DNA from: Candidatus Saccharimonadota bacterium
GTDB lineage: Bacteria; Patescibacteriota; Saccharimonadia; Saccharimonadales; Saccharimonadaceae
Assembly: GCA_015999875.1 (NCBI GenBank)
Contig: JAECRG010000001.1
Coordinates: forward strand, 607,330 to 671,329
Reading direction: 5' to 3'
Length of the DNA: 64,000 bases
The notes below the pieces were generated by a model. The model did no database searches, had not been told where the DNA came from, and saw only the letters and a list, made by a program, of their open reading frames with translations. The position numbers and the translations under genes were made by a program. Positions 48,593 to 63,799 of this stretch are shown in pieces; within the stretch, counting starts at the first letter, position 1, and each line of letters begins with the position of its first letter.

Positions 48593-49636
48593 ATGGAAGT
48601 ATCCGGGCTCCGTGTCCAGCACACCAGAAGTCACAGTGATGCAAAGTTCACTTTTTCTTCGCGCGTAAGTGTGATTACCGGTAAGAATGGATCTGGTAAA
48701 ACAACCTTACTCGAAGCACTTCATATTGCGCTGCGCGGCTCATCATTTCGCGGCACAGATAGCGAAATCTTGACACGCGATGAATCATGGTGGCGTATCG
48801 ATGTGGCGCTAGCTGACAACGAGCCACGTATCGTTAAATTTGACAGTGCTAAGCAGTCGGGTCGTAAACAGTTTGAAGTAGACACAAAGATATCCTATCG
48901 TCTTCCCGCTGCCAAAAAATATCCAATCATATTATTTGAACCGGACGATTTACGACTACTTAATGGTTCGCCTGCGCGCCGTCGACAGTTCGTCGATACG
49001 TTTATAGCTCAAATCAATCCACAGTACCCAGCAACTGTCCGTAAGTATGACAGAGCGCTTAAGCAGCGTAACGCACTCCTGAAGCAGCAGTATGTCTCGA
49101 GAGACAATGTATTTGTCTGGGATATGGCGATCGCAGAGTATGGTGCCGAGATAATCCGTGAGCGTACTCAAGTACTTGAACGTATCAACCAATCTCTCAC
49201 GGATACATATCAGAGTATCGCTGGTACAGACGACACCGTCTCCCTTCATTATTCCCATACTATGATAGACGGGATTGAGCAGAAGATTGTAAACGAACTG
49301 CATCAGAATTTCGAAAGAGATCAATTACTTGGCTTTACAAGCACTGGTCCACACCGGCACGACATCATCTCTGAATTCAATGGCTCACCAGCGATGGCAG
49401 TAGCCTCTCGCGGTGAAATACGAAGTGTCATCCTGGCGTTGAAGTTTATTGAGGTAGATGTAGCGGAGGCTGCGACAGGTCTCTCGCCTATTGTACTACT
49501 CGACGATGTGTTTGCTGAGCTCGACGAAACGCGTCAGCAGCGTCTGGCAGAAAAATGTCGAGGTAATCAGATGTTTATCACTAGCACGAGTGCTTATACG
49601 GGTATTGATAGTGCGGCTGTTATTTCGCTTGATTGA
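48593..49636 (+). CDS. recF: DNA replication and repair protein RecF
   Basis: A 347-residue SMC-like ATPase that assists RecA loading at gaps. Walker A is ITGKNGSGKTTLLEALHIA, the middle has LFEPDDLRLLNGSPARRRQF (a RecF hallmark), the signature region is AVASRGEIRSVILALKFIE (signature S-R-G-E), and Walker B is IVLLDDVFAELDETRQQRL. It starts 5 bp after dnaN. Its last 17 bases overlap the convergent small membrane-protein gene at 49620. The TGA stop also supports the standard genetic code. Confidence 0.95.
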   Translation: MEVSGLRVQHTRSHSDAKFTFSSRVSVITGKNGSGKTTLLEALHIALRGSSFRGTDSEILTRDESWWRIDVALADNEPRIVKFDSAKQSGRKQFEVDTKISYRLPAAKKYPIILFEPDDLRLLNGSPARRRQFVDTFIAQINPQYPATVRKYDRALKQRNALLKQQYVSRDNVFVWDMAIAEYGAEIIRERTQVLERINQSLTDTYQSIAGTDDTVSLHYSHTMIDGIEQKIVNELHQNFERDQLLGFTSTGPHRHDIISEFNGSPAMAVASRGEIRSVILALKFIEVDVAEAATGLSPIVLLDDVFAELDETRQQRLAEKCRGNQMFITSTSAYTGIDSAAVISLD

Positions 49637-50240
49637 TGTCGAGAAGAATAGAGCGATCGACATCACGGTAGAACGGAACGCTCAAGATGGGCGCAGGTGG
49701 CATGGAACGAAGTTGCCATTTACCGTCTTTTTTCTCGGCTAGAATACGCAAAGTATCTGCGTTATCCCCTAGTGGATCGCGTGCGATAAGAATCGCGCCA
49801 TAGTACTCACCTTGGTGATATAGCCTACCTCGTGCGAGAGTGTAGTCTGTTTCTGCTTTCGGGTAACTTTGACGTAGGAGTGCTTCAATCGCAGTGCGTT
49901 CATGTACGTATAGTGACCGGAGGTATGAGTCAGTGTAATTAAAGGTTGTATTAATAGTATATGTGGTGCTATCTACTGTAAGTGTGCGTGCCTCTAGTTT
50001 GATATTATTGCCAACGTTACGCATGGCGTACTCGCCTTTTTTGAGACGTACTGGCTGAGCATCGATTGGGTATAGCTTTTGTTTGTCGGCTCCAACTATC
50101 TCGACGTATCCCTGTGCTGAATTAAAGCGAAATGTTACTTCTTGAAACGAGTATATGTAGTTCCAGAGTGCATAGGCACCTATGCATGCGGCAATTATTC
50201 CTATGAGTGAAAGCGCTATGCGAATAGATTGGCGCTGCAT
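49620..50240 (-). CDS. Single-span membrane protein, cassette B gene 4
   Basis: A 206-residue protein with one N-terminal membrane helix (IALSLIGIIAACIGAYALW) and a ~175-residue extracellular domain that I do not recognise. It is clearly related to the protein at 55227-55913: both have the helix followed by SF-Q-x-x-T-x, an RLKKGEYA / RLKKGSYA strand, ALLRQSYP / QTILQKYP and the pattern G-x-Y-Y/W-x-A-x-L, then DTLRILAEKKDGKW / DTLRIIAHNEDGVW. It overlaps its upstream partner by 1 bp and recF by 17 bp. A structural or assembly role in the type IV secretion-like machine is inferred from its conserved place in both cassettes. Confidence 0.72.
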   Translation of the reverse strand: MQRQSIRIALSLIGIIAACIGAYALWNYIYSFQEVTFRFNSAQGYVEIVGADKQKLYPIDAQPVRLKKGEYAMRNVGNNIKLEARTLTVDSTTYTINTTFNYTDSYLRSLYVHERTAIEALLRQSYPKAETDYTLARGRLYHQGEYYGAILIARDPLGDNADTLRILAEKKDGKWQLRSMPPAPILSVPFYRDVDRSILLDINQAK

Positions 50241-50896
50241 CAGTTTGCCTCCAATGGATTTTTGTAGCCATCGTACTGTATGCGGTAGTCTGTCGGCTCA
50301 TAGCCTTTTTTTCGAAGGAACGTGAGCGCGGCCTGACGCTTCTCTGCGGAGGTGCCCCACACGACGAGCTCTACTGATTTATCATCATAATTTCGGTAGT
50401 CTATAGAATAATACGGATCTTTGATTGGTAGGATGTTGACGATCGGGTTGGCGGATTTGAAAAGTGTATTGTATTCACGATTTTTTTCTACGGTCAACAA
50501 CTCAAGTCGCTGGTATTCAGACTTGTGTGATTCTTGCCAATCGATCGACTCCTTGGATTTGCCGGCAAGTCCGATGTAGATATACGGTGTGGAATCTTCG
50601 GAGACTCGAAGATCTCGTGTTTGTGACGCGAAGCCCTCACGAGCAACGGTCACTTTGTATTCGCCGGGTTTGAGGTACGCTTCGCCGCGACTCGTAAGCG
50701 CTTCTCCCGTGTTTGTCTTTACTGTGGCGTCTCGGGGCACTACTTCTACAGCCACAGGTAATTTACCACGTCGCTGCTGGCTAGCTTGGTACGTAGAGTA
50801 GATGGCGACAAATATACACAAGACAACAAGCAGTACTACGCCCACTAAGATGGCGAGACGATACTTTCCTAGGTAATAAGATAATTCGTACTGCAT
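50240..50896 (-). CDS. Membrane protein with PEGA-like domain, cassette B gene 3
   Basis: A 218-residue protein with one membrane helix (AILVGVVLLVVLCIFVAIYS). Residues ~45-120 resemble a PEGA carbohydrate/peptidoglycan-binding repeat: VAVEVVPRDATVKTN, then AYLKPGEYKVTVAREGF. The C-terminal ~85 residues carry NPIVNILPIKDPYYSIDYR, nearly identical in its core to NYPIVKLLPIKDPYYSIGYL of the paralogue at 55910-56581, and both end near Y-K-N-P-L. The shared, invariant LPIKDPYYSI suggests a contact surface with a common partner. It lies between the hydrolase gene and the small membrane-protein gene with no gap. Function unknown. Confidence 0.72.
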   Translation of the reverse strand: MQYELSYYLGKYRLAILVGVVLLVVLCIFVAIYSTYQASQQRRGKLPVAVEVVPRDATVKTNTGEALTSRGEAYLKPGEYKVTVAREGFASQTRDLRVSEDSTPYIYIGLAGKSKESIDWQESHKSEYQRLELLTVEKNREYNTLFKSANPIVNILPIKDPYYSIDYRNYDDKSVELVVWGTSAEKRQAALTFLRKKGYEPTDYRIQYDGYKNPLEAN

Positions 50897-52159
50897 TTAT
50901 TTCTTCCTGTACCAATTATACCCAGGTTGGGTTGGGCTCTGCTGATTGTCAGCCATTGGCGCGCGCTCGTCTAGAGAGGCCGATGCTATCTTGGCCTGGA
51001 AGCCCGGTACTTCGCCTACATAGATAAATGTGTGGCTCGCGTTGATCGCGACATCACCGGGCTGTAGTGTACCCTCCGAGATACCAGAACTTGAACCGAG
51101 CGATTCCCAGTTTTTCTGCATCCAAGCCTCTTGAGCGCTTGTCGCACCACCCTTGCCATTATCGTTATAACCTTTTTCGTATCCGCTATCACGCACTAGA
51201 AGTGTCACGAAGCCACCACAGTCGATACCAGGAAGTGAGATGCCACCCACATATAATCCTTGAGACTGTGCGTCCTTGACGGCTTTCGCATACGAGTCTG
51301 TAGGTTTTGTGATCATACCTTTGAATTCGGGGTATGCGTATGCTTTTAAAGTCTCCTCGAAGTTACCGCCAGCAAATCCAGAAGACATACAATCACCCGA
51401 AGAGCCACTTTCGCTACTAGGTTTATCCGGGATTTCGGGGCGACCATGTTCGTCCACTGCGGCCTCTCCTGTCGGATCATTTAGTTCATTTTCTGCTTCA
51501 CTACCTGCTAGCGCTGGTGCGTTTTTGTACTGGTTATATACTTTTGTGGCGTTGCCACCACGAACACTCCTCACTGTACCGTTTGAGTCTGCTGACTTTT
51601 CGTACCCATCGTGCACCACTACTGCTGCTTCGACGGGATCATTTGTACTTCGAAGCTTGTTGAGTGTAGAGAGGTAGGGGCCGTTTAATTCTACCCACGT
51701 GAAGCTCAGCTGTCCGCCTAGGTCAGTGTTTTTTACACGCAGACTATCGACATGTTCTTGCAAAGGCTTCTGACGACCGCTAAAAGTCCACTGTACGAGG
51801 CCAAATCCCTTACCGTTCTCAAGTACGTAATCCTCGTTTTCATTAATCACACGCCCGCCTTGAACGATGTTCGGTTGCAAGTTTGACTCTTGTAGCATGT
51901 TGCCGATGATACCACTTGCTTGCGCTAGGTTAAGGCCCTTTCGCATATAAAAATTCAAGATCTTTTCTACGTTGTTGTTGCCTGCAAGTATGACCGCATT
52001 GCCACCAGGATCCTGACATTCGTCGTCGATACCCCAGGCTTCTTGGCTCATGAATCGTTGCGGATCGGTGATTGCGGCGACTTGAACTGGGAAAATAAGC
52101 TCGTTTACACAGAGGATACCCACGAAGACCAAGCAGATTAATCGGTAGATAGATCTCAT
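50897..52159 (-). CDS. Secreted cell-wall hydrolase: phage-tail-type lysozyme plus NlpC/P60-like domain (cassette B gene 2)
   Basis: A 420-residue exported protein with signal peptide YRLICLVFVGILCVNELIFP. Residues ~60-200 match the phage tail lysozyme fold: NVEKILNFYMRKGLNLAQAS, GIIGNMLQESNLQPN (catalytic Glu in Q-E-S) and GKGFGLVQWTFSGRQ. Residues ~270-420 form an NlpC/P60-like amidase/peptidase: GIDCGGFVTLLVRDSG (nucleophile Cys) and INASHTFIYVGE (His). The protein should cleave both glycan and peptide parts of peptidoglycan. Its start overlaps the stop of the M23 gene (ATGA). It is homologous over its length to the protein at 56591-58552 but lacks that protein's amidase insert. Confidence 0.82.
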   Translation of the reverse strand: MRSIYRLICLVFVGILCVNELIFPVQVAAITDPQRFMSQEAWGIDDECQDPGGNAVILAGNNNVEKILNFYMRKGLNLAQASGIIGNMLQESNLQPNIVQGGRVINENEDYVLENGKGFGLVQWTFSGRQKPLQEHVDSLRVKNTDLGGQLSFTWVELNGPYLSTLNKLRSTNDPVEAAVVVHDGYEKSADSNGTVRSVRGGNATKVYNQYKNAPALAGSEAENELNDPTGEAAVDEHGRPEIPDKPSSESGSSGDCMSSGFAGGNFEETLKAYAYPEFKGMITKPTDSYAKAVKDAQSQGLYVGGISLPGIDCGGFVTLLVRDSGYEKGYNDNGKGGATSAQEAWMQKNWESLGSSSGISEGTLQPGDVAINASHTFIYVGEVPGFQAKIASASLDERAPMADNQQSPTQPGYNWYRKK

Positions 52160-55101
52160 TCTGTGCTTCCCACCTTGGCGCCTTTGTCGAGGTATTGTCG
52201 AGGGTCTACGGGCTCACCGGTACCGCCGCCAATATTTTTGTAGCCACCATCCCATACCTCAAAGTGAAGGTGTGGCCCGGTACTCTGGCCTTCGTTTCCG
52301 ATCTTACCTATATTGTCACCTGCCTTTACCTCTTGGCCTTTTTTCACAAGCACCCCGCTTGTTGCCATGTGGCCATATACCGTGTCATAGCGACGTCCGT
52401 TATATTCGTGACGCAGTACAATCCAATTACCGAAGCCGTCTGCGGGACCAGCATCTACAACTGTCCCATCACGTGCCGCATAGATTGCTGTATCGAGCGG
52501 ACCGGCCAAGTCCGTACCGTTGTGGCGTGTACCACCGCGCATACCAAAGCCACTTGATATACTTGTTTTTGTTTTGTCGGTCGGATATGCCCAGCCGTCT
52601 TCACCAACTCCGCCATTTTCCCCGGTTGCAAAACCTTCTTCGGATCCGCCGTCCATACCTGGCAGATCTTGATCAAGCCCTTCGTTGATACCAAGACTTA
52701 GTTTAAACTTGGCGTAGTGCCAATTCTTTTCTCGGTTTACATCCGATACGCAGCCAGATCCATTTGTCGGGTCTTTTTCAATATCCTCGGTCGCACCTGG
52801 CTGCTGATCAACGCATTGTTCAATAAATTTCATGTAGTTCCATGCTTCGCCGTTATCGACAGGATCACCACTATCAGAATCAGGTGCAATCTCGTTGTGT
52901 TCTATCATCCAATTGAGATTGTCTATCGGATCTATCTCCATCGCCTCTTTTGGCAGTCCAAATACCATCACGCACGTCGGGTTGATGGCTACATTTGGCC
53001 CTAGATCAGCGTAGTCCGGGTCATTGCAGTAGGTGTAGCGATCTTTTTGTACTATATACTTATTGTTATCGTCAGCACTCACAAGTGGTAATAGGGAGCT
53101 TGTTGCGGCTGAGGCCACGAGCGGAATAGAGGACGCAAATCCCGCAAGGGTGCTACTCCGTAGGCTTGCAGTTATAGGAAGGGTGGTGCGAGCAAGCGAG
53201 CCGAGGAATGAAAACTGGTTGGTAACGTCGAATGGATCTTCTTTTGCAGCAAGCCTATCTATGTCGTCATACGCCTGCAGTACTTCACGTTTAGTATTTT
53301 GGTAGTCCGTCATGTCGTCCGGACTCATACTTACCATGCCCTGACTTCTCGCCAGACCGTTGTACATCGCGTCAGTGCCAACCGCCACACCGTTGCCGAA
53401 ATCATCATATCTTAAGCCCTCTGTAACTCGCCCCGCTACCATGTCAGCTAGCTGAGATGTTAAGTATGGAAGAGCCATAGCTAGAGCTACTGAACCGGCC
53501 ATAGAAATTGCCGTAGTGAGGCCAAACGAGCCAAGTCCTGCAGCTAGACTTATCGCCATCACTCCACTGCGCACAAAGACGTTTTGCACAACCTTGCAGC
53601 GCTGTGCAACCTCTCTCGGACTACTCGCTCCGGTAAGACGCGCGATGGCGTATTGAACATTGCCTATTTTGGACAATTTATCTCCGCCAACAATTAGCGC
53701 TTTTGAACGAAGGCTAAGCTTTTTTGTAGCACCATAGTCTTGATCTGCCACCTTAATGAGCGCTGCATCAGTAGCATTTTTGCCAGCGTTTGGCGCCCTA
53801 GTTCTGGGAAGATCTTGCCCCGCTGGTGTGCTATCTATCTTTGATTCATCTGGTATTTCCGACGCAGGAGCAGTCTCCATAATATCTTTTGAGGTCGCCT
53901 CTACGAGTGCGGGGTTTGCCATATTGGCGCGAATCGCATGAGCAGGCTGAATTACCCGGACAAATGCAAAACGGATCATCTCTGAATACTGGATGGTTTT
54001 TGCGCCTACACGTACGGCTGTGGCAAGATTATTTGCAGTACACGCTGTATCTACGCCACCCAAAAACGAAGCACCAATCGCAAGTTTACCGAGAGTACTA
54101 CCTGTCGAGGGTGATGTCTTGATTTTCTCTTCTTGATTCAACAGATTGTCATACTCCGCTTGTGAGTATACTCGCCCGGTATCGGGATCTCGATACTCGC
54201 CCGTTGGTTTTCCATCGTCATCTGTCACGGCGGTAAGCTTCTTAAACTCCACACTTGACGTTCCTTTGGTCCGCTCATCCATGTTTTTGCGTACTTCTTC
54301 TTCAGTACTTCCCTTGCCTGCAAGTGCATAACTGACCTTATTTTTCGTCAAAAAATCTACAGCCGCCCTACCTTTGTACGCGCTAAATCGAGGACTATAT
54401 ACCGAGTACATCTTCTCTCGAAAAAGTGGCTCCGTCTTCATGAGTTTGGCGAATTCATCAGGATTAGAGGCTTTAAGATTTGTGCCGTCGGCCTTAGTGA
54501 CGGTAAATGTGAGGGGTCTTCCGCGCCCCTCTCCCCATCCTGCGTCTTTGTCATATTCAATCTTTAATTTATCAGGCTTAGATGCGTTGTTGCGATCTAC
54601 GACTTTCTCTGTGGCCTTCATGTCTACCGTCGAGAATTTCTTGCACAAAGCTACAACCCCGCATGATGCAGGTGTTACCTTTTTGAGCTTTGTGCGCCAT
54701 AATTGGTTGGTAGTTTTGTCTACGGCCGAGAGTTGTGTATTTAGGTCTTTATCAAGCTTATCGGCGAGCATAAGAAGCGGCGTGCCTGGCGCAAGTGTGA
54801 TAAGAAATGCGCTACCACTACCAGCCATAAGTGTGATGATAATCACTATTGGTGATTTCTTTTTCCATCCGCGAAACGCACCTTGAAATTTCTGTCCTAC
54901 AGTCGAGAGGGAGTTTTGTCTTGAAGAGTTTGCTAACCGCTCCTCATTTGTGACGCTTGGGGTATTGTAGAAGTTGTTGTTGAGGCTGTCTATCTCGGCT
55001 TGAGCTTCTTTTTGTTTGACATAGTCTACATAATCACCCTTCTGATACTGGGGTGTGTAGTCTGTAGATTGCTTATCTTCAACAGGTGTCGGCGCCGACA
55101 T
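52156..55101 (-). CDS. Large membrane protein with C-terminal M23 peptidase (VirB6-like, cassette B gene 1)
   Basis: A 981-residue protein. Cytoplasmic N-terminal ~75 residues precede a membrane helix (PIVIIITLMAGSGSAFLITL). A soluble region of ~330 residues follows, then several hydrophobic segments (~residues 510-560: GVMAISLAAGLGSFGLTTAI, then a second helix) and SFLGSLARTTLPITASLRSS. The C-terminal ~125 residues are an M23/LytM endopeptidase: HNGTD near residue 860 (H-x3-D zinc ligands) and HLHFE near residue 944. In T4SS loci, VirB6-like membrane proteins occupy this position after VirB4; fusion to a peptidase is inferred to open peptidoglycan. It is paralogous to the 1138-residue protein at 58555-61971 outside the catalytic end. 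A good GGGGAGGAG lies 5 nt before the ATG. Confidence 0.78.
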   Translation of the reverse strand: MSAPTPVEDKQSTDYTPQYQKGDYVDYVKQKEAQAEIDSLNNNFYNTPSVTNEERLANSSRQNSLSTVGQKFQGAFRGWKKKSPIVIIITLMAGSGSAFLITLAPGTPLLMLADKLDKDLNTQLSAVDKTTNQLWRTKLKKVTPASCGVVALCKKFSTVDMKATEKVVDRNNASKPDKLKIEYDKDAGWGEGRGRPLTFTVTKADGTNLKASNPDEFAKLMKTEPLFREKMYSVYSPRFSAYKGRAAVDFLTKNKVSYALAGKGSTEEEVRKNMDERTKGTSSVEFKKLTAVTDDDGKPTGEYRDPDTGRVYSQAEYDNLLNQEEKIKTSPSTGSTLGKLAIGASFLGGVDTACTANNLATAVRVGAKTIQYSEMIRFAFVRVIQPAHAIRANMANPALVEATSKDIMETAPASEIPDESKIDSTPAGQDLPRTRAPNAGKNATDAALIKVADQDYGATKKLSLRSKALIVGGDKLSKIGNVQYAIARLTGASSPREVAQRCKVVQNVFVRSGVMAISLAAGLGSFGLTTAISMAGSVALAMALPYLTSQLADMVAGRVTEGLRYDDFGNGVAVGTDAMYNGLARSQGMVSMSPDDMTDYQNTKREVLQAYDDIDRLAAKEDPFDVTNQFSFLGSLARTTLPITASLRSSTLAGFASSIPLVASAATSSLLPLVSADDNNKYIVQKDRYTYCNDPDYADLGPNVAINPTCVMVFGLPKEAMEIDPIDNLNWMIEHNEIAPDSDSGDPVDNGEAWNYMKFIEQCVDQQPGATEDIEKDPTNGSGCVSDVNREKNWHYAKFKLSLGINEGLDQDLPGMDGGSEEGFATGENGGVGEDGWAYPTDKTKTSISSGFGMRGGTRHNGTDLAGPLDTAIYAARDGTVVDAGPADGFGNWIVLRHEYNGRRYDTVYGHMATSGVLVKKGQEVKAGDNIGKIGNEGQSTGPHLHFEVWDGGYKNIGGGTGEPVDPRQYLDKGAKVGSTE

Positions 55102-55106
55102 ATAAA

Positions 55107-55146
55107 CTCCTCCCCTAGTAGACTAGGAGAATCCTAAGAATTTAGG
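55107..55146 (-). promoter_or_regulatory. Leader hairpins overlapping the cassette B ribosome binding site
   Basis: The leader contains two inverted repeats: CCTAA/TTAGG (55133-55137 with 55142-55146) and an 8-bp arm pair CCCCTAGT/ACTAGGAG (55112-55119 with 55122-55129, one G-T wobble, 2-nt loop). The second overlaps the Shine-Dalgarno sequence (complement at 55107-55115), so folding could hide the ribosome binding site. This is a prediction from base pairing. Confidence 0.4.
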
Positions 55147-55159
55147 TTATTACAGATAG

Positions 55160-55188
55160 AGTATACAATATTTATTTGTATTATGCAA
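55160..55188 (-). promoter_or_regulatory. Promoter of cassette B
   Basis: TTGCAT (55188-55183) and TATACT (55165-55160), both on the minus strand, are separated by exactly 17 nt. The predicted start is near 55153, giving a leader of about 50 nt before the ATG at 55101. This allows cassette B to be transcribed separately from cassette A. Confidence 0.65.
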
Positions 55189-55226
55189 TCTTATCTTTGT
55201 TGCTACAAGTCTTACTTAAAAACTTC

Positions 55227-55913
55227 TTATTGGGCTCGTTCGGCAGCTGTTTTTGGCGCCGGGAGCAACGCGTTTGTATACCTGAGTATTTCTACGGGAA
55301 TTGTTGGGTATTCAGCTCGACTGATCGCAATCTGAGGAGGTGTAGCCACTTTCCATACACCATCTTCGTTATGAGCAATTATTCTTAGTGTGTCACGCAC
55401 AGTATCGTCCGGTCCCGTGTAGGATAGATATGCAACATACCAATCGCCTTGTTGGAGAATCTTCTCACCCTTAAACGAGTATAGGGATGAAACTTCAGGA
55501 TATTTCTGTAGAATTGTTTGCTGAATTACGGATCGTTGCTCATCAAGTAGAGACTTTAATGCATTGCTTGAAAGTCGAAGCTCATAATTTACAGTCTCTT
55601 CTTCGCTACCGACACTTATGAATTTAGTATTTTCTGCATATGATTCACCTTTTGTAATTAGTGCATAGCTACCTTTTTTGAGTCGGAGACGTTCTCCGCT
55701 TTTGACATCCTGAACTTTTGTAGCAATTTCCATATTATGTTCATTTCCACCCTCTTTGGCAGTGTGGAGTTCTACGACAGCTGGTTTGTACGGATTATCG
55801 TAGCTAATAGTCATGTACTGAAATGAAGTTATATAGCTCACTATCCCTATGACTATTCCTCCAAGGGTGAAAACTGCTATAACTAGTAGAATGAGCTGGG
55901 TGCGTTGATTCAC
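55227..55913 (-). CDS. Single-span membrane protein, cassette A gene 4
   Basis: A 228-residue protein with an N-terminal membrane helix (LILLVIAVFTLGGIVIGIVS) and a ~195-residue exterior domain of unknown fold. It is the paralogue of the 206-residue protein at 49620-50240: both share RLKKGSYA/RLKKGEYA, a helix with the ILQKYP-like end, and DTLRIIAHNEDGVWKV. It has about 20 more residues, including a basic Pro-containing C-terminal tail (LLPAPKTAAERAQ). Its start overlaps the stop of the PEGA-like gene. A structural role in the secretion apparatus is inferred from repeated gene order. Confidence 0.72.
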   Translation of the reverse strand: MNQRTQLILLVIAVFTLGGIVIGIVSYITSFQYMTISYDNPYKPAVVELHTAKEGGNEHNMEIATKVQDVKSGERLRLKKGSYALITKGESYAENTKFISVGSEEETVNYELRLSSNALKSLLDEQRSVIQQTILQKYPEVSSLYSFKGEKILQQGDWYVAYLSYTGPDDTVRDTLRIIAHNEDGVWKVATPPQIAISRAEYPTIPVEILRYTNALLPAPKTAAERAQ

Positions 55914-56581
55914 TGCTTTGCCTCCGTGAGTGGATTCTTGTAGTCCTGAAATACAATCTTGTAATCATAAAGGTTCACGCCAAGCCCCTGGATTCTTTTG
56001 AGGGCATTGCTACGGTAGCGAGGAGACTCGGTGTAGACAGTGAGGTAGAAGCCGCCACCTTTGCCATCTGATAGATATCCGATGCTGTAGTAGGGGTCTT
56101 TTATCGGAAGTAGTTTTACGATTGGGTAATTATTTTCGAAGTTCTCTGTAAATTCTCGAGACGCTTCTCCACTTTTACCTTCAATCTCCTGGATCTGGAC
56201 AGTCTCTTCGCGAGTAAAGGTCTTTTTACCGACCTGATCTTTGACGAGAACTCTATAGATGTTGGAAGGATTTTTATCAGTTACGGTCAGTGTGTCCTCG
56301 ACCGACTTATAGCCATCGGCTGACACTTGGTACTTGTAGTTTCCAGGCGGCAAATAGTGAACTCCTCGAGCAAGATCACCAGCACCTTCCACTGATATCT
56401 TGGCGTTATGCGGGAAAGTCGCTATTTCCACAGGAACTTTACCCTGTCGACTTATGAAAGTCCAAGCACTATATGCACTAATTAGAATCACTACGAGAAT
56501 CGTGAATACTATAACGATTCGACGGTGCCGCAAAATCCAGTCCTGTATGTTACGAAAGAAGTAATATGCAATGTCATTCAT
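55910..56581 (-). CDS. Membrane protein with PEGA-like domain, cassette A gene 3
   Basis: A 223-residue protein with one membrane helix (RIVIVFTILVVILISAYSAW). The region at ~45-120 (VEIATFPHNAKISVEG, then HYLPPGNYKYQVSADGYKSV) matches the PEGA pattern, a beta-domain found in surface and wall-associated proteins. The C-terminal half contains the same LPIKDPYYSI signature as the cassette B protein at 50240-50896, and the same Y-K-N-P-L near the end. Sequence outside these motifs is strongly diverged, so the duplication is old. Probably acts at the membrane/wall interface of the type IV-like machine. Confidence 0.72.
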   Translation of the reverse strand: MNDIAYYFFRNIQDWILRHRRIVIVFTILVVILISAYSAWTFISRQGKVPVEIATFPHNAKISVEGAGDLARGVHYLPPGNYKYQVSADGYKSVEDTLTVTDKNPSNIYRVLVKDQVGKKTFTREETVQIQEIEGKSGEASREFTENFENNYPIVKLLPIKDPYYSIGYLSDGKGGGFYLTVYTESPRYRSNALKRIQGLGVNLYDYKIVFQDYKNPLTEAKQ

Positions 56582-56590
56582 AATTGTTTC

Positions 56591-58552
56591 CTATACCTTT
56601 TTCCTATACCAGTTGAAGCCAGGTTCGTTTGCGGAGTTTCCTCCTGCCATCGGTGCCCTGTCGCAGAGGGATGCAGACGCAATATCTGTACCCTCAAATA
56701 CCCCGTCTCCTACGAAGATAAATGTGTGTTGGGCATTTATCGCAACATCACCGGGCTTGAGTTTGGCTGGATCCTGTACACCTGAACCTATAGGCTCCCA
56801 GTTTTTCTTTGCCCAATCTTCCTGGGTACTTGTTGGACCCGCACCGTCAGCGCTTTTGCCGCTGAAGTTGTAGCCGGGATCGTGACCGCTATCTATGACG
56901 AGACGCGTCACGAAGGCTCCGCAGTCTACTCCTTCGCAGCCGCCGATATAGCTATCTGCTTTGGTTTTTGCGATTGCATCGACGTATTCTTTTTTGCGCT
57001 CAGTAAACCCAGAAGGATGTGTTTCAGGCCAGGCATAGGCCTTGGCTGTTGCAGCTAGGTCTCCGGAGACCGCTCCGCCGCTACTGCCACCGCAGCCGCC
57101 GGTTGTCGGTGAACCACCCGATGGATTGGCTGCTACGATGCCCTCGATAACACCTTTTGCATAGATATCTTTATCTTCGTCAGTAAGCCCGATTGAGCCT
57201 CCTCTGCCATCTTTCGCGAATTCGTTGTATACCCATGGCACATCCGGACTAAGCATCTGTACCCACGCAAGATTACCTGCAGCGATATCTGGGCGACCGT
57301 CGAAATTCACTTTACTGACTGGGACTGGTCCACCCTCGGCTTCGGCTCGTTTCTTGGCTACTGCCTCGGAGTATTGAGTACTTTTTTGGGCAGTTTGATC
57401 ATTTTTAAACTCTATCTTGCCGTTTGAGCCTTGTCGATAAGCGCCAGTAAACTGATTAAATACCTCGCTAGCTCCAGGAGTAGAATGTAAGCTTATAGCC
57501 ATCGCCGCACCTGCTTTTTTGGCACGCTCAGCACGTTGCCTAAAATCAACAGACTCATCTTTGGAGCTACGGAGCATTTCTACTTTATAACCTTTCTCTT
57601 CGAGTCCGGCTTTCACCTTCTCGCCTACTTGCCACATATCGTCCACTTCTGGGCTGTTGGGGTAATCATATAGATCGGCTCCTGTAGTCTCTTCTGGCAC
57701 TCGTACGTCTACGGCATTATGACCAGGATCGATGGCAATAACAGCCTTGCCAGAGGTATCACCGCCCTGTGTCGACCCGTCACCACCCGTACTGAGCCCG
57801 CCTGCTGGAGGTGCATCCTTGTATTGGTCGTAGATTTTCTGTGCGTTACCACCTCGTACAGTCCTTACGGCCTCATCTGAATCGGCTGAAGCCTCGTAGC
57901 CTGGGTTAGGTGGGCCGTGAACGATGATTGCAGCATCTACAGGGTTGTCGGCACCTTTGAGCGCGGTGAGTGTGTGTTTCCATCTAGTATTCAGTTCGTC
58001 CCATATATATTCGAGCTGGACATCAATATCCCTAAAACTCTTTTTTTCACTAGGTGTACTCATTTGTTCACCTTTTGCTTTGAGCGGATCTTGGCGATCA
58101 GTAAAGGTCCATTGGATAAGTCCAAATCCTACGCCATTTTGCATCTCATAATTATCATCGGCCACAGCGCCACCTTGAATCTTCCTCGGATCTACGCCAG
58201 ATTCTTGCATCATGTTACCGACGAAGCCAGAGGCTTGCTGTAGCGTCAGACCCTTGCCCATGAAGTAGTTAAGCACTTTTTCGATATTGTCCTTGCCTGA
58301 TAGCTGCACGGTAGTACCAGAGGAGGGGTCTACGCATACATTACTGAAGAACTCGTTACGATTGAGCGAGTTGTATGCTGGGTCATCACTGTATTCGGTT
58401 GGTTGGCTCGATGCCTCTGCTGATTTATCCTCTTCGGCTGGTGCGGTAGGATCTAATGGCGCGTTATCTTGAGGTGCGGCAAGTACATTTGTGTGCATTG
58501 TCGAAGATAGTAGCATCATGCTCGCAAGAGCTATTAAAACAATACGCCGCAT
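56591..58552 (-). CDS. Secreted triple-domain cell-wall hydrolase: tail lysozyme + Amidase_3 + NlpC/P60-like (cassette A gene 2)
   Basis: A 653-residue exported protein; start at 58552 (MRRIVLIALASMMLLSSTMH signal) follows GGGGAG at 6 nt, whereas 58558 is only 2 nt away. Residues ~75-225 are the lysozyme domain (GFVGNMMQESGVDPR and GFGLIQWTFTDRQ). Residues ~265-475 are N-acetylmuramoyl-L-alanine amidase type 3: VIAIDPGHNAVDVRVP (zinc His), the glutamate segment EVDDMWQVGEKV, MAISLHSTPGA (second His) and WVYNEFAKDG. Residues ~500-653 are NlpC/P60-like (GVDCGAFVTRLVIDSG; INAQHTFIFVGDG). Compared with the cassette B protein the amidase is an insertion. It probably cuts glycan strands, the amide link and stem peptides. 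Confidence 0.82.
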   Translation of the reverse strand: MRRIVLIALASMMLLSSTMHTNVLAAPQDNAPLDPTAPAEEDKSAEASSQPTEYSDDPAYNSLNRNEFFSNVCVDPSSGTTVQLSGKDNIEKVLNYFMGKGLTLQQASGFVGNMMQESGVDPRKIQGGAVADDNYEMQNGVGFGLIQWTFTDRQDPLKAKGEQMSTPSEKKSFRDIDVQLEYIWDELNTRWKHTLTALKGADNPVDAAIIVHGPPNPGYEASADSDEAVRTVRGGNAQKIYDQYKDAPPAGGLSTGGDGSTQGGDTSGKAVIAIDPGHNAVDVRVPEETTGADLYDYPNSPEVDDMWQVGEKVKAGLEEKGYKVEMLRSSKDESVDFRQRAERAKKAGAAMAISLHSTPGASEVFNQFTGAYRQGSNGKIEFKNDQTAQKSTQYSEAVAKKRAEAEGGPVPVSKVNFDGRPDIAAGNLAWVQMLSPDVPWVYNEFAKDGRGGSIGLTDEDKDIYAKGVIEGIVAANPSGGSPTTGGCGGSSGGAVSGDLAATAKAYAWPETHPSGFTERKKEYVDAIAKTKADSYIGGCEGVDCGAFVTRLVIDSGHDPGYNFSGKSADGAGPTSTQEDWAKKNWEPIGSGVQDPAKLKPGDVAINAQHTFIFVGDGVFEGTDIASASLCDRAPMAGGNSANEPGFNWYRKKV

Positions 58553-58554
58553 GC

Positions 58555-61500
58555 TCATCTCCCCTTCCTGTCGCCAGCGTCTATATGAAGATGGTTGCAT
58601 GCATCTTCAAAATGGAGGTTGCCAGCAGCCACTACATCAATTTCAGAAGGCGGGTTATTTGTAAGATTAAAGTTGCCGCAGCCTTTTTGGCCGACACCGC
58701 CAAGAGTTTTATGGCCTCTTTTGGCAAGGTTCTTGAGCCAATCACGTGAATACGAATCCACTACTGAAGTACAGTTGGCGTCAAACGTAATATTGTCGCA
58801 GGACTTTCCTCCACTTATTTCCGAGATGCCGTTGATGTCTATTGCTCCACCCTTCGGGTGCTGGCCGTTATCGCATGGTACATCTATCCTATCCTCTATA
58901 AAACCAAAGTTATTGAGTACGATCTTGTACTTCTCTGCGTTATCTAGGATTACCTGGAGCAGCTCTGCCTTGAGTTCGTAGGGCCCACCACAGAAGCTTG
59001 TCGCTTGGCCGGTCTCTGCGTATTTTGTTAGCGCTGGTTTTGTGCCCGCCATATTAAACTCTATGTTTGGATTCTCAAGTATTTGTTTGGCAAGCTTACG
59101 GGAATCACCACTTGCAGCTGTATCTGCGGATTCTTCTTCTGCCGGGTTATCCATGTCATCGTTGGTGTTGAATGCGGAAGTGTACGCACGATATATCTTG
59201 TATACCGCCGGGCGACAACGCTCTTGAGCTTTTTCGAGCCCAACTCCGTCTTGAGGTTTATCATTCTCACTGGCAGGACATGCATTTGCATCGATACATT
59301 CTCTACCGGTAGACTGATAATCTTCTTCTACCAGGCCATCGAGAAAGCTCTTCTCTAAGCCATCAGGGTCGCCGAAGTGGGCGTTGCGGCCCTCGCCATC
59401 ACCATAGCGACAGAAGCGATACCAGTGTGCGTAGGTTCTAGTATCTTGTAGTATATCACCACCATTATCATCCTTATTCTCTGGGTAGTCGATCTGGTCT
59501 TCGGCTGTAGGAGGAAAAGGAGTAGTGGCCAGTGTTGCGGATGTCTGGTTGCCTGTAGGAGTGGCAGTATCTACGGATGCAAGCTGATCATCGTCAGGTG
59601 TCTTGGTGCCGAGCACTGCACTAATCCGCTCTTCGCCAATTGCTCGAAACAGCGACTTTTGTGCTTCGGCGGTAGTAACTGGCTCTCCTGTCGACGGTAC
59701 GATTTGTTTATGCTCGATCATCCAGTCGGCTAGCACTTCTGGATCGGCATTAAGTTCTTCTGTTGTTAGTCCGTAGCGCGGGTTGCAGTTTAGATCGGCG
59801 AAATTAAGATTTATTTCAGTGAAACTAGGGTCTGTGCATTTTTGAAAGCGGTCTATAGGGGATGCTGTATTTGCTTTTGCTGTAGGAGATATAGCACTGG
59901 CCGCGGTAGCGAGAATATTTGGAGCCATCGCGAGCATCGTGCCTCCGTTTTTTGTGGCGGTATTTAGCATAGGATAGAACGACCCTGCGAGTGAACCGAG
60001 GAATGAGTACTTGTTGTAGGCATTGAACGGATCATCTCTTGCCTCGAGACGAGCAATTTCATCATACTGATTGTTTGTTTCGGCAGTAAGTGTCATGTAG
60101 TCTGCAACTGCCTCTTTGGTAGAAAGAGGTGCGAGACCCTTGCTGCTCGCGGTACTTCCTAGTAGGCCACCTACGCCGGAGCCTGTCGCTTGGCCTAGGT
60201 CATAACCGTCTTCAGGGAGCTCTCCTTCGGCCATGTCTTTGAGGTATGACTGGAGATATGCCATTGCAAAGTATGCAGCCAGCCCAAACGCTGCGACTGT
60301 GCCAACTTTTAGCCCGGCACGTATAAGTCCACCCGAAAATGCAATAGCTACCGCTCCCACAATGAGTCCTACGCCGCGTACATATACACTCTGTACGACA
60401 GAGCATGTTTTTTGACCACCTATCACGGAACTCATTTTATCGGAAAGCTTTTGTAAGAATGAGGCACCTAGTCCTATCCCTACTGCATTTTGCGTGCTAC
60501 GAAATGTCGATTCTTCTACGGCACCGTAGGCTGAAGCGCGATACATCTGGGAGTCATAGGCATTTTTCCCCTCGTCGGGATTTGCGATTGTTTGTTGAAA
60601 CGGTGTTGCATCCTGGGGGTCATAAACACCTGCTTCATTTGTCCACTCACCCTCTTTCATAGCCGCGGATTGGTCGAGTACATCTTTCCTCAAATCTTGA
60701 TGTGAGAATTTCTCGCCCATATATTCGACTGCTTCTGGTGTTGCCGCACCTGCGATTATAGAATCTGAGGTATTGAGTGCTATGAACCCAAGGCGAATAT
60801 ACTGACTATATTTTACAACTTTTGACGCTGCGGATACGAGACGAAGCATTTTCATGACAGAACAGTACGTGTCTACGTCTCCTGCAATATTGACTGCGTT
60901 CATGCCTTTAGTGAGTAATCCACCCGTTGCTTTTTTGCCAAGCTTGTTTAATTGGGATGAATCGGGTTCTTCGTTAAGCATTTTGATCTTATCTTCACCC
61001 TCTATCCTCCTACCATCTTCATCAACCCAGTCGCCATTTTCGTTTTTTGTGGCAGTTTTTCCACCTATTGAGCCATTTCCTTCTTTTACAGCTGACTCGA
61101 ATTGGCCATCCATAGCCTTTTTGTCACCACTTAGCTTTCTGGCTTTCGTGATCTTCATCTTTTCCATGACCTTTTTTATGGCTCCGCCAGTCATCGATGT
61201 ATGACGGGCGTTGAATGACTTAAAGAGCATGGTTCTAAACTGAGCGCTTTTACGCATTTCTATGTCGTAGTTGCGTGCATCCACTGTCACCACTTCTTTT
61301 GTTCTGCCGTCTGCGCTCACCTTGTCGTATTCGATAGCTTCGACGGCATTGCGTCCAAGCATGTTTTTCTTGCGCTCCTCTGCTGCGGGGCGCACTCGAA
61401 AACCTGCATCTTCAAGCTTTTTAACTTGTTTGTCGCTCATGGTTGCGAAGCGGCATTTTATAGTAATGACTTTATTACAAACACCCTTTGTTCGCGTGAC

Positions 61501-61971
61501 AGGTTTCATTTTTTTCTTAAAAAGTACACTCTGGTTTTTGTCTTGAGCAGTCATCGTATCGTTCATGTCTTCTTTGAACGTAGACATACCTTGCACGAAG
61601 CCGATAGCTGGTCCGAAGCTGGCGATACCGAAGAATCCAAATCCAGCCAAGGCAGAGAGGATGATACCGAGTGGCCCCTTTTGCTTTACAAAATTAAGCG
61701 CTTTTGTTTTTCGAGAAGACGTCGTGTCCTCTCCTTTTTCCGTGGAGTTTACGGGCGTAGCGGGTGCAGGGGGCTGGGACTCTCGATTGTTGAGGGCGGA
61801 AATATTTGCGTTTTCATCTGTCGGGTCTGCAGAAGTGCCAAAGTTGCGCTCAATATCGGCCAGTGCACTTTGCTCAGCTTGATTTAGACTCGAGCTTTGC
61901 GCGACCTTAGCGTCCCAGTTTGCTTGGCCTGGGTTGCGAACGTCATCTTTTTCTGGCGTGAGTGTTGGCAT
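58555..61971 (-). CDS. Large membrane protein with C-terminal M15-like peptidase (VirB6-like, cassette A gene 1)
   Basis: An 1138-residue protein homologous to the 981-residue protein at 52156-55101: both share the helix after a ~70-residue N-terminus (GPLGIILSALAGFGFFGIAS), a conserved ~200-residue region, a pair of membrane helices (YVRGVGLIVGAVAIAFSGGL) and YDEIARLEARDDPFNAYNKY with YSFLGSLAGSFYPML. The last ~110 residues have HPKGGAIDI near residue 1038 (H-x6-D) and HLHID near residue 1128, the metal motif of M15 D,D-/L,D-carboxypeptidases, where its paralogue has M23. It therefore has a different cutting chemistry at the same place. It follows VirB4 by 7 bp. Role: inferred transport channel component able to breach peptidoglycan. 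Confidence 0.75.
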   Translation of the reverse strand: MPTLTPEKDDVRNPGQANWDAKVAQSSSLNQAEQSALADIERNFGTSADPTDENANISALNNRESQPPAPATPVNSTEKGEDTTSSRKTKALNFVKQKGPLGIILSALAGFGFFGIASFGPAIGFVQGMSTFKEDMNDTMTAQDKNQSVLFKKKMKPVTRTKGVCNKVITIKCRFATMSDKQVKKLEDAGFRVRPAAEERKKNMLGRNAVEAIEYDKVSADGRTKEVVTVDARNYDIEMRKSAQFRTMLFKSFNARHTSMTGGAIKKVMEKMKITKARKLSGDKKAMDGQFESAVKEGNGSIGGKTATKNENGDWVDEDGRRIEGEDKIKMLNEEPDSSQLNKLGKKATGGLLTKGMNAVNIAGDVDTYCSVMKMLRLVSAASKVVKYSQYIRLGFIALNTSDSIIAGAATPEAVEYMGEKFSHQDLRKDVLDQSAAMKEGEWTNEAGVYDPQDATPFQQTIANPDEGKNAYDSQMYRASAYGAVEESTFRSTQNAVGIGLGASFLQKLSDKMSSVIGGQKTCSVVQSVYVRGVGLIVGAVAIAFSGGLIRAGLKVGTVAAFGLAAYFAMAYLQSYLKDMAEGELPEDGYDLGQATGSGVGGLLGSTASSKGLAPLSTKEAVADYMTLTAETNNQYDEIARLEARDDPFNAYNKYSFLGSLAGSFYPMLNTATKNGGTMLAMAPNILATAASAISPTAKANTASPIDRFQKCTDPSFTEINLNFADLNCNPRYGLTTEELNADPEVLADWMIEHKQIVPSTGEPVTTAEAQKSLFRAIGEERISAVLGTKTPDDDQLASVDTATPTGNQTSATLATTPFPPTAEDQIDYPENKDDNGGDILQDTRTYAHWYRFCRYGDGEGRNAHFGDPDGLEKSFLDGLVEEDYQSTGRECIDANACPASENDKPQDGVGLEKAQERCRPAVYKIYRAYTSAFNTNDDMDNPAEEESADTAASGDSRKLAKQILENPNIEFNMAGTKPALTKYAETGQATSFCGGPYELKAELLQVILDNAEKYKIVLNNFGFIEDRIDVPCDNGQHPKGGAIDINGISEISGGKSCDNITFDANCTSVVDSYSRDWLKNLAKRGHKTLGGVGQKGCGNFNLTNNPPSEIDVVAAGNLHFEDACNHLHIDAGDRKGR

Positions 61972-61978
61972 ATTGAAA

Positions 61979-63799
61979 CTATGTCTGTTGCTGCTTTAGT
62001 TGTTCGAGCGGAGTGGTGCTTACGAGTTGGATTTCCGTTTGGCTAGCAATGATTTGAATATGGACGTGGTTTTGGCCTGCAAAGAACAGCCCCTGCCCTA
62101 CCGGGAAGTTTGCGAGCCGTTTCTTTTCTTCTTCTGTGAGTTTAAACACGTCACTCAGTACGTCGACAGCACTTGATGATTGCTTGAGTAGAAGCTGCAT
62201 AGACGAGTTGGCGACAATCGCACGGCCCATCTTGCTGCCCATAAAGTCTTCAACGTCCTGGGTGATAGTGGTGATGCCAAGGTAGTACTTACGAGCGCGT
62301 TTCGCGAGACTGAAGAGGAAGTTGGCTGAATCCTCATACTTCATAAGCTGCCATGCCTCGTCCACGATCAACATGCGTTTTTTGCGCTGTGAGCGAGTAA
62401 TATTCCAAATGTGACTTAGTACGATGTACATAGCGACTGGTCGAAGCTCATCCTCCAGGTCGCGGATATTGAACACGACCATTGAGTTGTTTATCTCAAT
62501 ATTGCTTTGTTGTGAGAAGATACCCGCGAAAGTGCCTGAGGTGTATTTGCGCAAGCGCTGAGCAAGTTTAGGGCCAGTGCCACCCATATGAAGCAATGTG
62601 TCGTACAAGTCGGCCATAGTTGGTGGCATAGAATTGTGTGTCAGCGGATCACTTGTGATACCGAGGCGTGCGTAAGTATCTATCAATGCTTGGTCGAGAT
62701 CAGCCTCTTCTTCTGGAGAGAGAGTTACGTTTGTGTTTGTGGCGGTAGCGCCACCAAGCATGAGTCGCAATAAACCGTGTAATGTGACGAGATTCGCGCG
62801 CAGTGCATCATCGGCTTCGTCGGTATCAATTACTTTTGGTAGATCAAACGGATTGATGCGCACATCCGAGCTCAGGCTGAGGCGCACATAACTACCACCT
62901 ACTGCATCGCTGAGGCGCTGGTATTCGTTTTCTGGATCGATGATAATCACGTCTGCCCCGGTCATCATGGAGCGTGCGGCCTCAAGTTTGACGGTAAATG
63001 ATTTACCTGCTCCGGACTTTGCAAACACCACCATATTGGCATTTTCTAGTGTAAAGCGATCGAAGATAACTAGCCCGTTGTTGTGCATGTTTATGCCATA
63101 TAGGATGCCTTTTTCTTGTGTGAGGTCGGCACTCGTGAACGGGAACGAGGTAGAGATAGCGCCCGTGTTCATGTTGCGGCGAATCTGCAGCTGGTCCATA
63201 AGCTGCGGCACTGTGCTATTGAGCCCTTGTTCTTGTTGAGAGCTTGCCACCTTACTGAAGACAAGTTGTTGGCCAAAGAGTGTCTCTATTTTGTTTTGTA
63301 CAAACACAAGATCGTCCATACTATCTGCATACAGTGTAATGTAGAGGCCATAGCGGAAGAACTTTTCGCTACCGACCTGTAGTTCATCTCGGAGCTCTTC
63401 GGCGTCTTGCAGGGCTGCCTCGAGGCCTGGATCACGTGTCTTGCCTTTTTCTTGATTGATCGACATGCTTGCTTCGAGTTGGGTAACCTTTTTGCGCAGA
63501 TTCTGCATGACTACCTGTGTGTCTACCGGGTACAAAAACATACTCACGTCGAGTACTTCATCCATATTGATGATACTACTAAGCCAGCCAGTGTAAATCT
63601 GGCGAGGATATCCATAGATATAGATTGTCCGGCCGTACTTGGTACCTAAGCGAAAATGATCAGCATGAAATTCTAGGCTGCTTGGTGCGATGAGGTCACG
63701 TAGTGTATTAACACCCTTAAGAAAGGCCTGCTCCACCTCTGACTGTTCACGCGCTCGCTGCTGAGCAGCTATATCAACTGCGTCTTGTCGTTTTGCCAT
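61979..63799 (-). CDS. virB4: Type IV secretion/conjugation ATPase VirB4 (TraC-like)
   Basis: A 606-residue cytoplasmic ATPase that powers assembly or substrate movement in type IV secretion. The N-terminal ~230 residues (HFRLGTKYGRTIYIYGYPRQ; a helical coiled middle) precede Walker A FAKSGAGKSFTVKLEAARS near residue 259 and the strand DVIIIDPENEYQRLSDAVGG, typical of VirB4. The region KKRMLIVDEAWQLMKYED near residue 480 is Walker B, then GITTITQDVEDFMGS, the motif shared by VirB4/TraC. Its ATG overlaps the upstream stop (TAATG). It heads the cassette A genes, anchoring the locus as T4SS-like; other core genes (VirB3-like, coupling protein) may lie beyond the right edge. Confidence 0.93.
   Translation of the reverse strand: MAKRQDAVDIAAQQRAREQSEVEQAFLKGVNTLRDLIAPSSLEFHADHFRLGTKYGRTIYIYGYPRQIYTGWLSSIINMDEVLDVSMFLYPVDTQVVMQNLRKKVTQLEASMSINQEKGKTRDPGLEAALQDAEELRDELQVGSEKFFRYGLYITLYADSMDDLVFVQNKIETLFGQQLVFSKVASSQQEQGLNSTVPQLMDQLQIRRNMNTGAISTSFPFTSADLTQEKGILYGINMHNNGLVIFDRFTLENANMVVFAKSGAGKSFTVKLEAARSMMTGADVIIIDPENEYQRLSDAVGGSYVRLSLSSDVRINPFDLPKVIDTDEADDALRANLVTLHGLLRLMLGGATATNTNVTLSPEEEADLDQALIDTYARLGITSDPLTHNSMPPTMADLYDTLLHMGGTGPKLAQRLRKYTSGTFAGIFSQQSNIEINNSMVVFNIRDLEDELRPVAMYIVLSHIWNITRSQRKKRMLIVDEAWQLMKYEDSANFLFSLAKRARKYYLGITTITQDVEDFMGSKMGRAIVANSSMQLLLKQSSSAVDVLSDVFKLTEEEKKRLANFPVGQGLFFAGQNHVHIQIIASQTEIQLVSTTPLEQLKQQQT

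Follow-up and report, generated by a model that had tools for sequence, protein, structure and literature searches.

The window, that is, the whole stretch of 64,000 nucleotides from a Candidatus Saccharimonadota bacterium that was analysed, contains on its minus strand eight intact open reading frames (ORFs) located 3' of virB4 and arranged in two collinear blocks, A1-A4 and B1-B4 (Table 1). All eight were found where the initial annotation had placed them, on the same strand and uninterrupted. The order of genes is virB4, A1, A2, A3, A4, a gap of 125 bp, and B1-B4, which meet recF tail to tail with an overlap of 17 bp between the 3' ends of B4 and recF. A1 begins 7 bp after virB4. Neighbouring genes of a block, or cassette, overlap or almost touch (ATGA at A1/A2; four bases at B1/B2 and at A3/A4), a spacing like that in operons. 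Translation of A2 probably begins at the ATG at 58558 and not at 58600, since that ATG produces the ATGA overlap with the stop codon of A1 and is followed by a signal peptide. The corresponding genes of both cassettes are referred to below as families g1 to g4.

Table 1. Features of the two cassettes and of virB4, in coordinates of the window
Feature	Position	Strand	Remarks
virB4	61979..63799	-	NF045971.1; single copy in genome; directly upstream of cassette A
A1, large membrane protein (g1 family), 1138 aa	58555-61971	-	homologous to B1
A1 C-terminal LAS-type metallopeptidase domain	58567..59016	-	HxxGxAxD and HxH motifs
A2, secreted wall hydrolase, 669 aa	56591-58600 (likely true start 58558)	-
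A2 phage-tail-type lysozyme domain	57821..58291	-	PF18013 E 7.7e-25
A2 Amidase_3 domain	57131..57748	-	PF01520 E 1.3e-11
A2 NlpC/P60-like domain	56597..57070	-	47% identity to B2 domain
A3, single-span membrane protein with PEGA (g3), 223 aa	55910-56581	-	PF08308 E 6e-5
A4, single-span membrane protein, PEGA-like + C4 domain (g4), 228 aa	55227-55913	-
Promoter-like element TTGCAT-N17-TATACT before cassette B	55160..55188	-	conserved in congeners
B1, large membrane protein (g1 family), 981 aa	52156-55101	-	homologous to A1
B1 C-terminal M23 peptidase	52243..52527	-	PF01551 E 3.3e-28; PDB 9gy1 E 4e-30
B2, secreted lysozyme + NlpC/P60-like protein, 420 aa	50897-52159	-
B2 phage-tail-type lysozyme domain	51527..51973	-	PF18013 E 9.7e-29
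B2 NlpC/P60-like domain	50900..51373	-	PF00877 E 0.0014, under Pfam cut-off
B3, TM + PEGA (N3) + C3 domain (g3), 218 aa	50240-50896	-
B4, TM + PEGA-like (N4) + C4 domain (g4), 206 aa	49620-50240	-

The two blocks had been described as homologous gene by gene, and pairwise BLASTP bears this out, all four protein pairs aligning far above chance. The identity is 27% over 759 columns for A1/B1 (E 6e-58), 49% and 47% in two segments for A2/B2 (E 2e-52 and 4e-39), 34% for A3/B3 (E 4e-27) and 31% for A4/B4 (E 1e-19). At the DNA level the similarity is almost gone, with 52 bp at 81% as the best blastn piece, which indicates that the A and B copies are old. The catalytic modules have diverged, as had also been supposed: A1 ends in a LAS-type domain and B1 in an M23 peptidase, and Amidase_3 is present in A2 and absent from B2.

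A promoter-like element, TTGCRT-N17-TATAMT with a 17-nt spacer, precedes B1 in all four congeners (the window and the genomes G001, G002 and G003); 0.07 such elements are expected by chance in the window. A consensus promoter scan of the region stayed at the chance level, so that the element is made credible only by its conservation across species. A hairpin over the ribosome-binding site of B1 (55110-55131) was considered and rejected, being no better than shuffled sequences (z -0.85) and not conserved.

Domains of the cassette proteins

A2 consists of a phage-tail lysozyme, an Amidase_3 and an NlpC/P60-like domain, in this order, and B2 of a lysozyme followed by an NlpC/P60-like domain. The two outer parts of A2 had been recognized in the initial annotation; the N-acetylmuramoyl-L-alanine amidase domain (Amidase_3) between them had been overlooked. 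Both g2 proteins, linked to virB4, thus have an NlpC/P60-like part as second wall-peptidase domain, and the two copies, 47% identical, keep D-C-G and N-A-x-H. Both lysozyme parts can be aligned with PDB 3csr, and the alignment covers the Glu at position 45 of that chain, which we take to be the catalytic residue. The C-terminus of A1 has no match in Pfam. However, a profile of this domain reaches LAS-type structures (PDB 9flh, E 0.0011; Sonic hedgehog, E 0.016), and H, G, D and H-x-H are invariant in an alignment of 13 members. The ORFs of the upstream cassette, all intact, retain the catalytic motifs.

It is useful to compare g2 with the VirB1-type hydrolases of the type IV secretion systems (T4SS) of monoderm conjugation, such as Orf14/CwlT of Tn916, TraG of pIP501 and PrgK of pCF10, which combine a glycosidase with a CHAP/NlpC or LytM domain. 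The g2 proteins are likewise secreted or membrane-bound, multi-domain and encoded beside T4SS genes. However, neither A2 nor B2 has the SLT-type transglycosylase domain of the SLT plus CHAP/NlpC arrangement; the PF18013 phage-tail lysozyme is found instead, and A2 also has Amidase_3. The g2 lysozyme is homologous (E about 1e-4) to that of Morphogenesis protein 1, the tail-tip lysozyme/endopeptidase of phage phi29 (PDB 3csq), and in both cases a lysozyme is paired with a peptidase. Unlike the phage protein, g2 is no part of a phage structure; it is secreted, or else linked with a membrane protein and with T4SS genes.

The AlphaFold2 model of B1 is moderately confident (pLDDT 75), and its g1 core has no fold match in the PDB. 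A homology of g1 with VirB6 was rejected: g1 has few membrane spans, belongs to no Pfam family and has no PDB fold. Separate polytopic ORFs upstream of virB4 would be better candidates for VirB6. In relatives these ORFs have 705-818 aa and no Pfam match; the contig of the window ends short of this position.

Each g3 protein has one membrane span, a PEGA domain and a domain C3, and each g4 protein one span, a PEGA-like domain and a domain C4. The hydrophobic spans, one per protein, comprise residues 8-32 in B3/B4 and 7-40 in A3/A4. Related N-terminal domains (hhalign E 1.4e-5) make genes 3 and 4 partly paralogous to each other; C3 and C4 are unrelated. A joint alignment of g3, g4 and the fused proteins was dropped, since the C-terminal domains were misaligned. 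A single fused protein TM-PEGA-C3-C4 occurs at nine other loci, which suggests that g3 and g4 work together.

The g3/g4 pair resembles the VirB8-like proteins TcpC, TraM and PrgL in its single N-terminal membrane span, its domains on the wall side and the position of the gene beside a hydrolase gene. It differs from them in the PEGA-like first domain and in the lack of a significant match to the NTF2-like VirB8 fold, by sequence or by structure. The model of B4 is confident (pLDDT 92), and TcpC (3ub1) is among its weak fold matches at rank 7 (Foldseek E 0.03, TM 0.25). Sequence searches with g4 (Pfam over 12 members and a PDB profile) returned no VirB8 match, and the likeness of g4 to VirB8 is weak. 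According to PMC12857230, the wall is opened in monoderm T4SS by VirB1-type hydrolases, which VirB8-type proteins position. A recent account of Patescibacterial T4SS (PMC12102498) found almost no VirB8 outside class ABY1, and the g3/g4 pair is a candidate for the scaffold reported as missing.

In many upstream cassettes of relatives, g3 and g4 are replaced by a single-span protein of ~470-570 aa, here called X, partly with a PEGA-like N-terminus; it is also present in some single cassettes (loci L050 10718-12208, L051 4364-6001, L052 4780-6372, L059/L080, L060, L061, L092 and L096).

The type IV secretion locus in relatives

The virB4 product matches NF045971.1 (CD1110 family) with 374.9 bits, above the curated cut-off of 325, and the genome, which is 98.6% complete, has one copy of the gene. 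Genome contigs of relatives were searched with VirB4, and the order virB4-g1-g2-g3-g4 facing recF-dnaN-dnaA was found to be the rule across Saccharibacteria relatives. The T4SS association proposed in the initial annotation is confirmed by the VirB4 score and by this recurrent order. Of the 62 loci that could be read from virB4 as far as recF/dnaN, a single g1 is present in 50 and two are present in five, including the window; the 10-kb flanks make this count biased against long loci. Five further genomes (G002, G003, G050, G065 and G162) likewise have two cassettes. G065 has two complete g1-g4 sets, as in the window; in most two-cassette relatives the upstream cassette is without genes 3-4 and has a protein of ~500-570 aa there instead. 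In the two-cassette genomes that can be read through, both cassettes lie between virB4 and recF, and thus not in unrelated loci. As a standard wall-facing module, the block belongs to the T4SS locus of Saccharibacteria; it usually occurs once and is doubled in a minority of genomes that includes the whole genus of the window (four congeners).

The locus resembles the Patescibacterial MPF_FATA-type T4SS (Quinonero-Coronel et al. 2025, PMC12102498) in the VirB4 family, the location beside dnaA, the presence of genes for a peptidase and a lysozyme immediately 3' of virB4 and, in relatives, a PrgI/VirB3-like protein upstream. The last was found near virB4 in the relative L080 (PF12666 E 3.7e-12); in the genome of the window, an ORF that starts in the same way (MAVYKVPQDVEADDKL...) lies two genes before virB4. 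The same account describes the coupling protein and the relaxase as mostly away from virB4 in Patescibacteria; in Southlakia, the genes for peptidase and lysozyme immediately 3' of virB4 are given there as essential for growth as an epibiont. The T4SS as such, its location near dnaA and the essential hydrolase genes by virB4 have already been published. The two tandem g1-g4 cassettes and the g3/g4 pair are not described in the available part of that account, and no description of the tandem cassettes, the variable upstream slot or the g3/g4 pair was found in the literature, searchable mostly in its open-access part. The role of the T4SS in Saccharibacteria has been described as completely unknown (PMC11665869). 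It is essential for epibiotic growth in the one species tested, according to papers that cite that experiment.

Within the genus, the cassette next to recF is stable, whereas that next to virB4 has a different hydrolase set in each of the four species. The identity among the congeners is 94-97% for VirB4, 54-60% for B1, 56-74% for B2, 59-61% for B3 and 46-48% for B4, but 24-36% for A1. The upstream g2 combines lysozyme, Amidase_3 and NlpC in the window, GH3 and lysozyme in G001, SLT and M23 in G002, and GDSL, Beta-lactamase2 and SLT with an NlpC-like part in G003. The SLT domain was confined to upstream g2 proteins of certain relatives (G002, G003 and G050). The downstream g2 is a lysozyme plus NlpC-like protein in all four congeners and also in six other genomes; two of these proteins have an additional GDSL/SGNH-type part. 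The variability is partly a trait of the family, since hydrolase content varies among single-cassette relatives as well. In G001 the cassettes are separated by an iron-permease-like gene (OFeT_1) and a small membrane protein (L050 9389-10728).

History of the two cassettes

The initial annotation interpreted the locus as a tandem duplication of a four-gene block. This does not hold in that form: a sister relation of A1 and B1 in the g1 tree is rejected (AU p 1.2e-71), and genes 3-4 of the upstream cassette are absent in most two-cassette relatives. B1 falls in a supported clade made up of nine recF-proximal g1 proteins from six genera, A1 groups only with the upstream g1 of the congeners G002 and G003, and the upstream g1 proteins of different genomes fall in different clades. 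The split between A and B is older than the genus. A genuine recent tandem duplication exists elsewhere, in G015 (L068 / L119), where L068 has two g1 copies that are sisters.

A2 appears to be a mosaic. Its lysozyme part falls with the B2 clade (98/90), and its grouping with the kin from UBA1944, UBA6223 and G018 is rejected (AU p 1.3e-4). Its Amidase_3 is closest to the single-cassette loci of UBA1944 and UBA6223, and its amidase and NlpC parts together are closest to UBA1944, which has a single cassette with lysozyme, Amidase_3 and NlpC. The non-sister position of A1 and B1 and the mosaic A2 imply that the tandem arrangement arose from an old duplication or from acquisition, with replacement.

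There is rather less than an even chance that cassette A was gained horizontally from another Saccharibacterium and not duplicated, an origin compatible with the account of function given below. The discordant affinities of the parts of A2, amidase and NlpC nearest UBA1944 and lysozyme nearest the B2 clade with the UBA1944 alternative rejected, speak for such a gain, as does the scatter of upstream g1 proteins over different clades. However, A1 is shared with two other congeners, so that the acquisition would be older than part of the genus, and a placement of the A2 NlpC part with the B2 clade is not rejected (p 0.096).

Proposed function

We consider it rather probable that the locus encodes one T4SS machine with a single VirB4 and two diverged wall modules, with the roles and origin outlined here. 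The block would be the wall-facing module of a chromosomal, MPF_FATA-derived Saccharibacterial T4SS, and both cassettes would serve one VirB4. The g2 protein would act as a secreted multi-domain peptidoglycan hydrolase in the role of VirB1, and g1 as a membrane protein bearing a second hydrolase, its C-terminus, outside the membrane. The single-span g3 and g4, with their PEGA-like outer domains, together probably form a scaffold as VirB8-type proteins do elsewhere. The pair of cassettes may go back to an ancient duplication or acquisition, the upstream slot having since undergone replacement and domain swapping, rather than to one recent duplication.

The initial annotation had put forward two machines, or else one heteromeric machine. 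A pair of separate secretion machines, with one wall module apiece, could be read from the two full g1-g4 sets and from the promoter-like element proper to cassette B. However, a 98.6% complete genome with only one virB4, behind which both cassettes lie, makes this very improbable, and the single virB4 renders one machine with two wall modules the likelier arrangement.

In this one machine, cassette B, with its own promoter, would open the epibiont's own wall and hold the channel, and cassette A, continuous with virB4, would supply exchangeable enzymes for a variable substrate, most plausibly the wall of the partner cell. This division into own-wall and host-wall roles is plausible; we infer it from the sequences, as a reading of the stable against the variable cassette in a small sample of four congeners. 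The more specific idea that the upstream cassette is an exchangeable tool slot, its hydrolases fitted to the host wall while the downstream cassette keeps the own wall open, is tentative, and we hold it to be possible but doubtful. If it were true, the enzyme content of the slot would predict the host range. A stable module beside a fast-changing one makes the slot enzymes comparable with the wall chemistry of known hosts.

The same variability might reflect plain paralogy under relaxed constraint, an extra cassette that drifts and swaps domains and provides redundancy or dosage without a host-directed role. Extra cassettes are patchy among relatives, hydrolase domains are swapped in single-cassette genomes also, and A1 evolves fast, all of which would fit. 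On the other hand, the upstream ORFs are all intact with their catalytic motifs kept, retention in all four congeners with a reduced (~1 Mb) genome argues for use, and whole new domains (GH3, GDSL and Amidase_3) were gained, not lost. We regard this explanation as rather unlikely.

Some further features of the secretion genes were observed. VirB4 has a mean column identity of 82% among 11 relatives, compared with about 20-40% for g1-g4. The ORF just upstream of virB4 in the genome of the window (L155 14129-15337) holds a masked N/X stretch. A third g1-like protein, of 901 aa and without a peptidase domain, is encoded outside the window (L156 8323-15514; C3 of the same genome, about 441-448 kb). 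Its neighbours there are a ClpB-like AAA ATPase and a TrbL/VirB6 protein (PF04610 E 5e-8). The orthologue of this g1-like protein in two relatives (L161 and L163/L080) is located upstream of virB4 within the T4SS locus.
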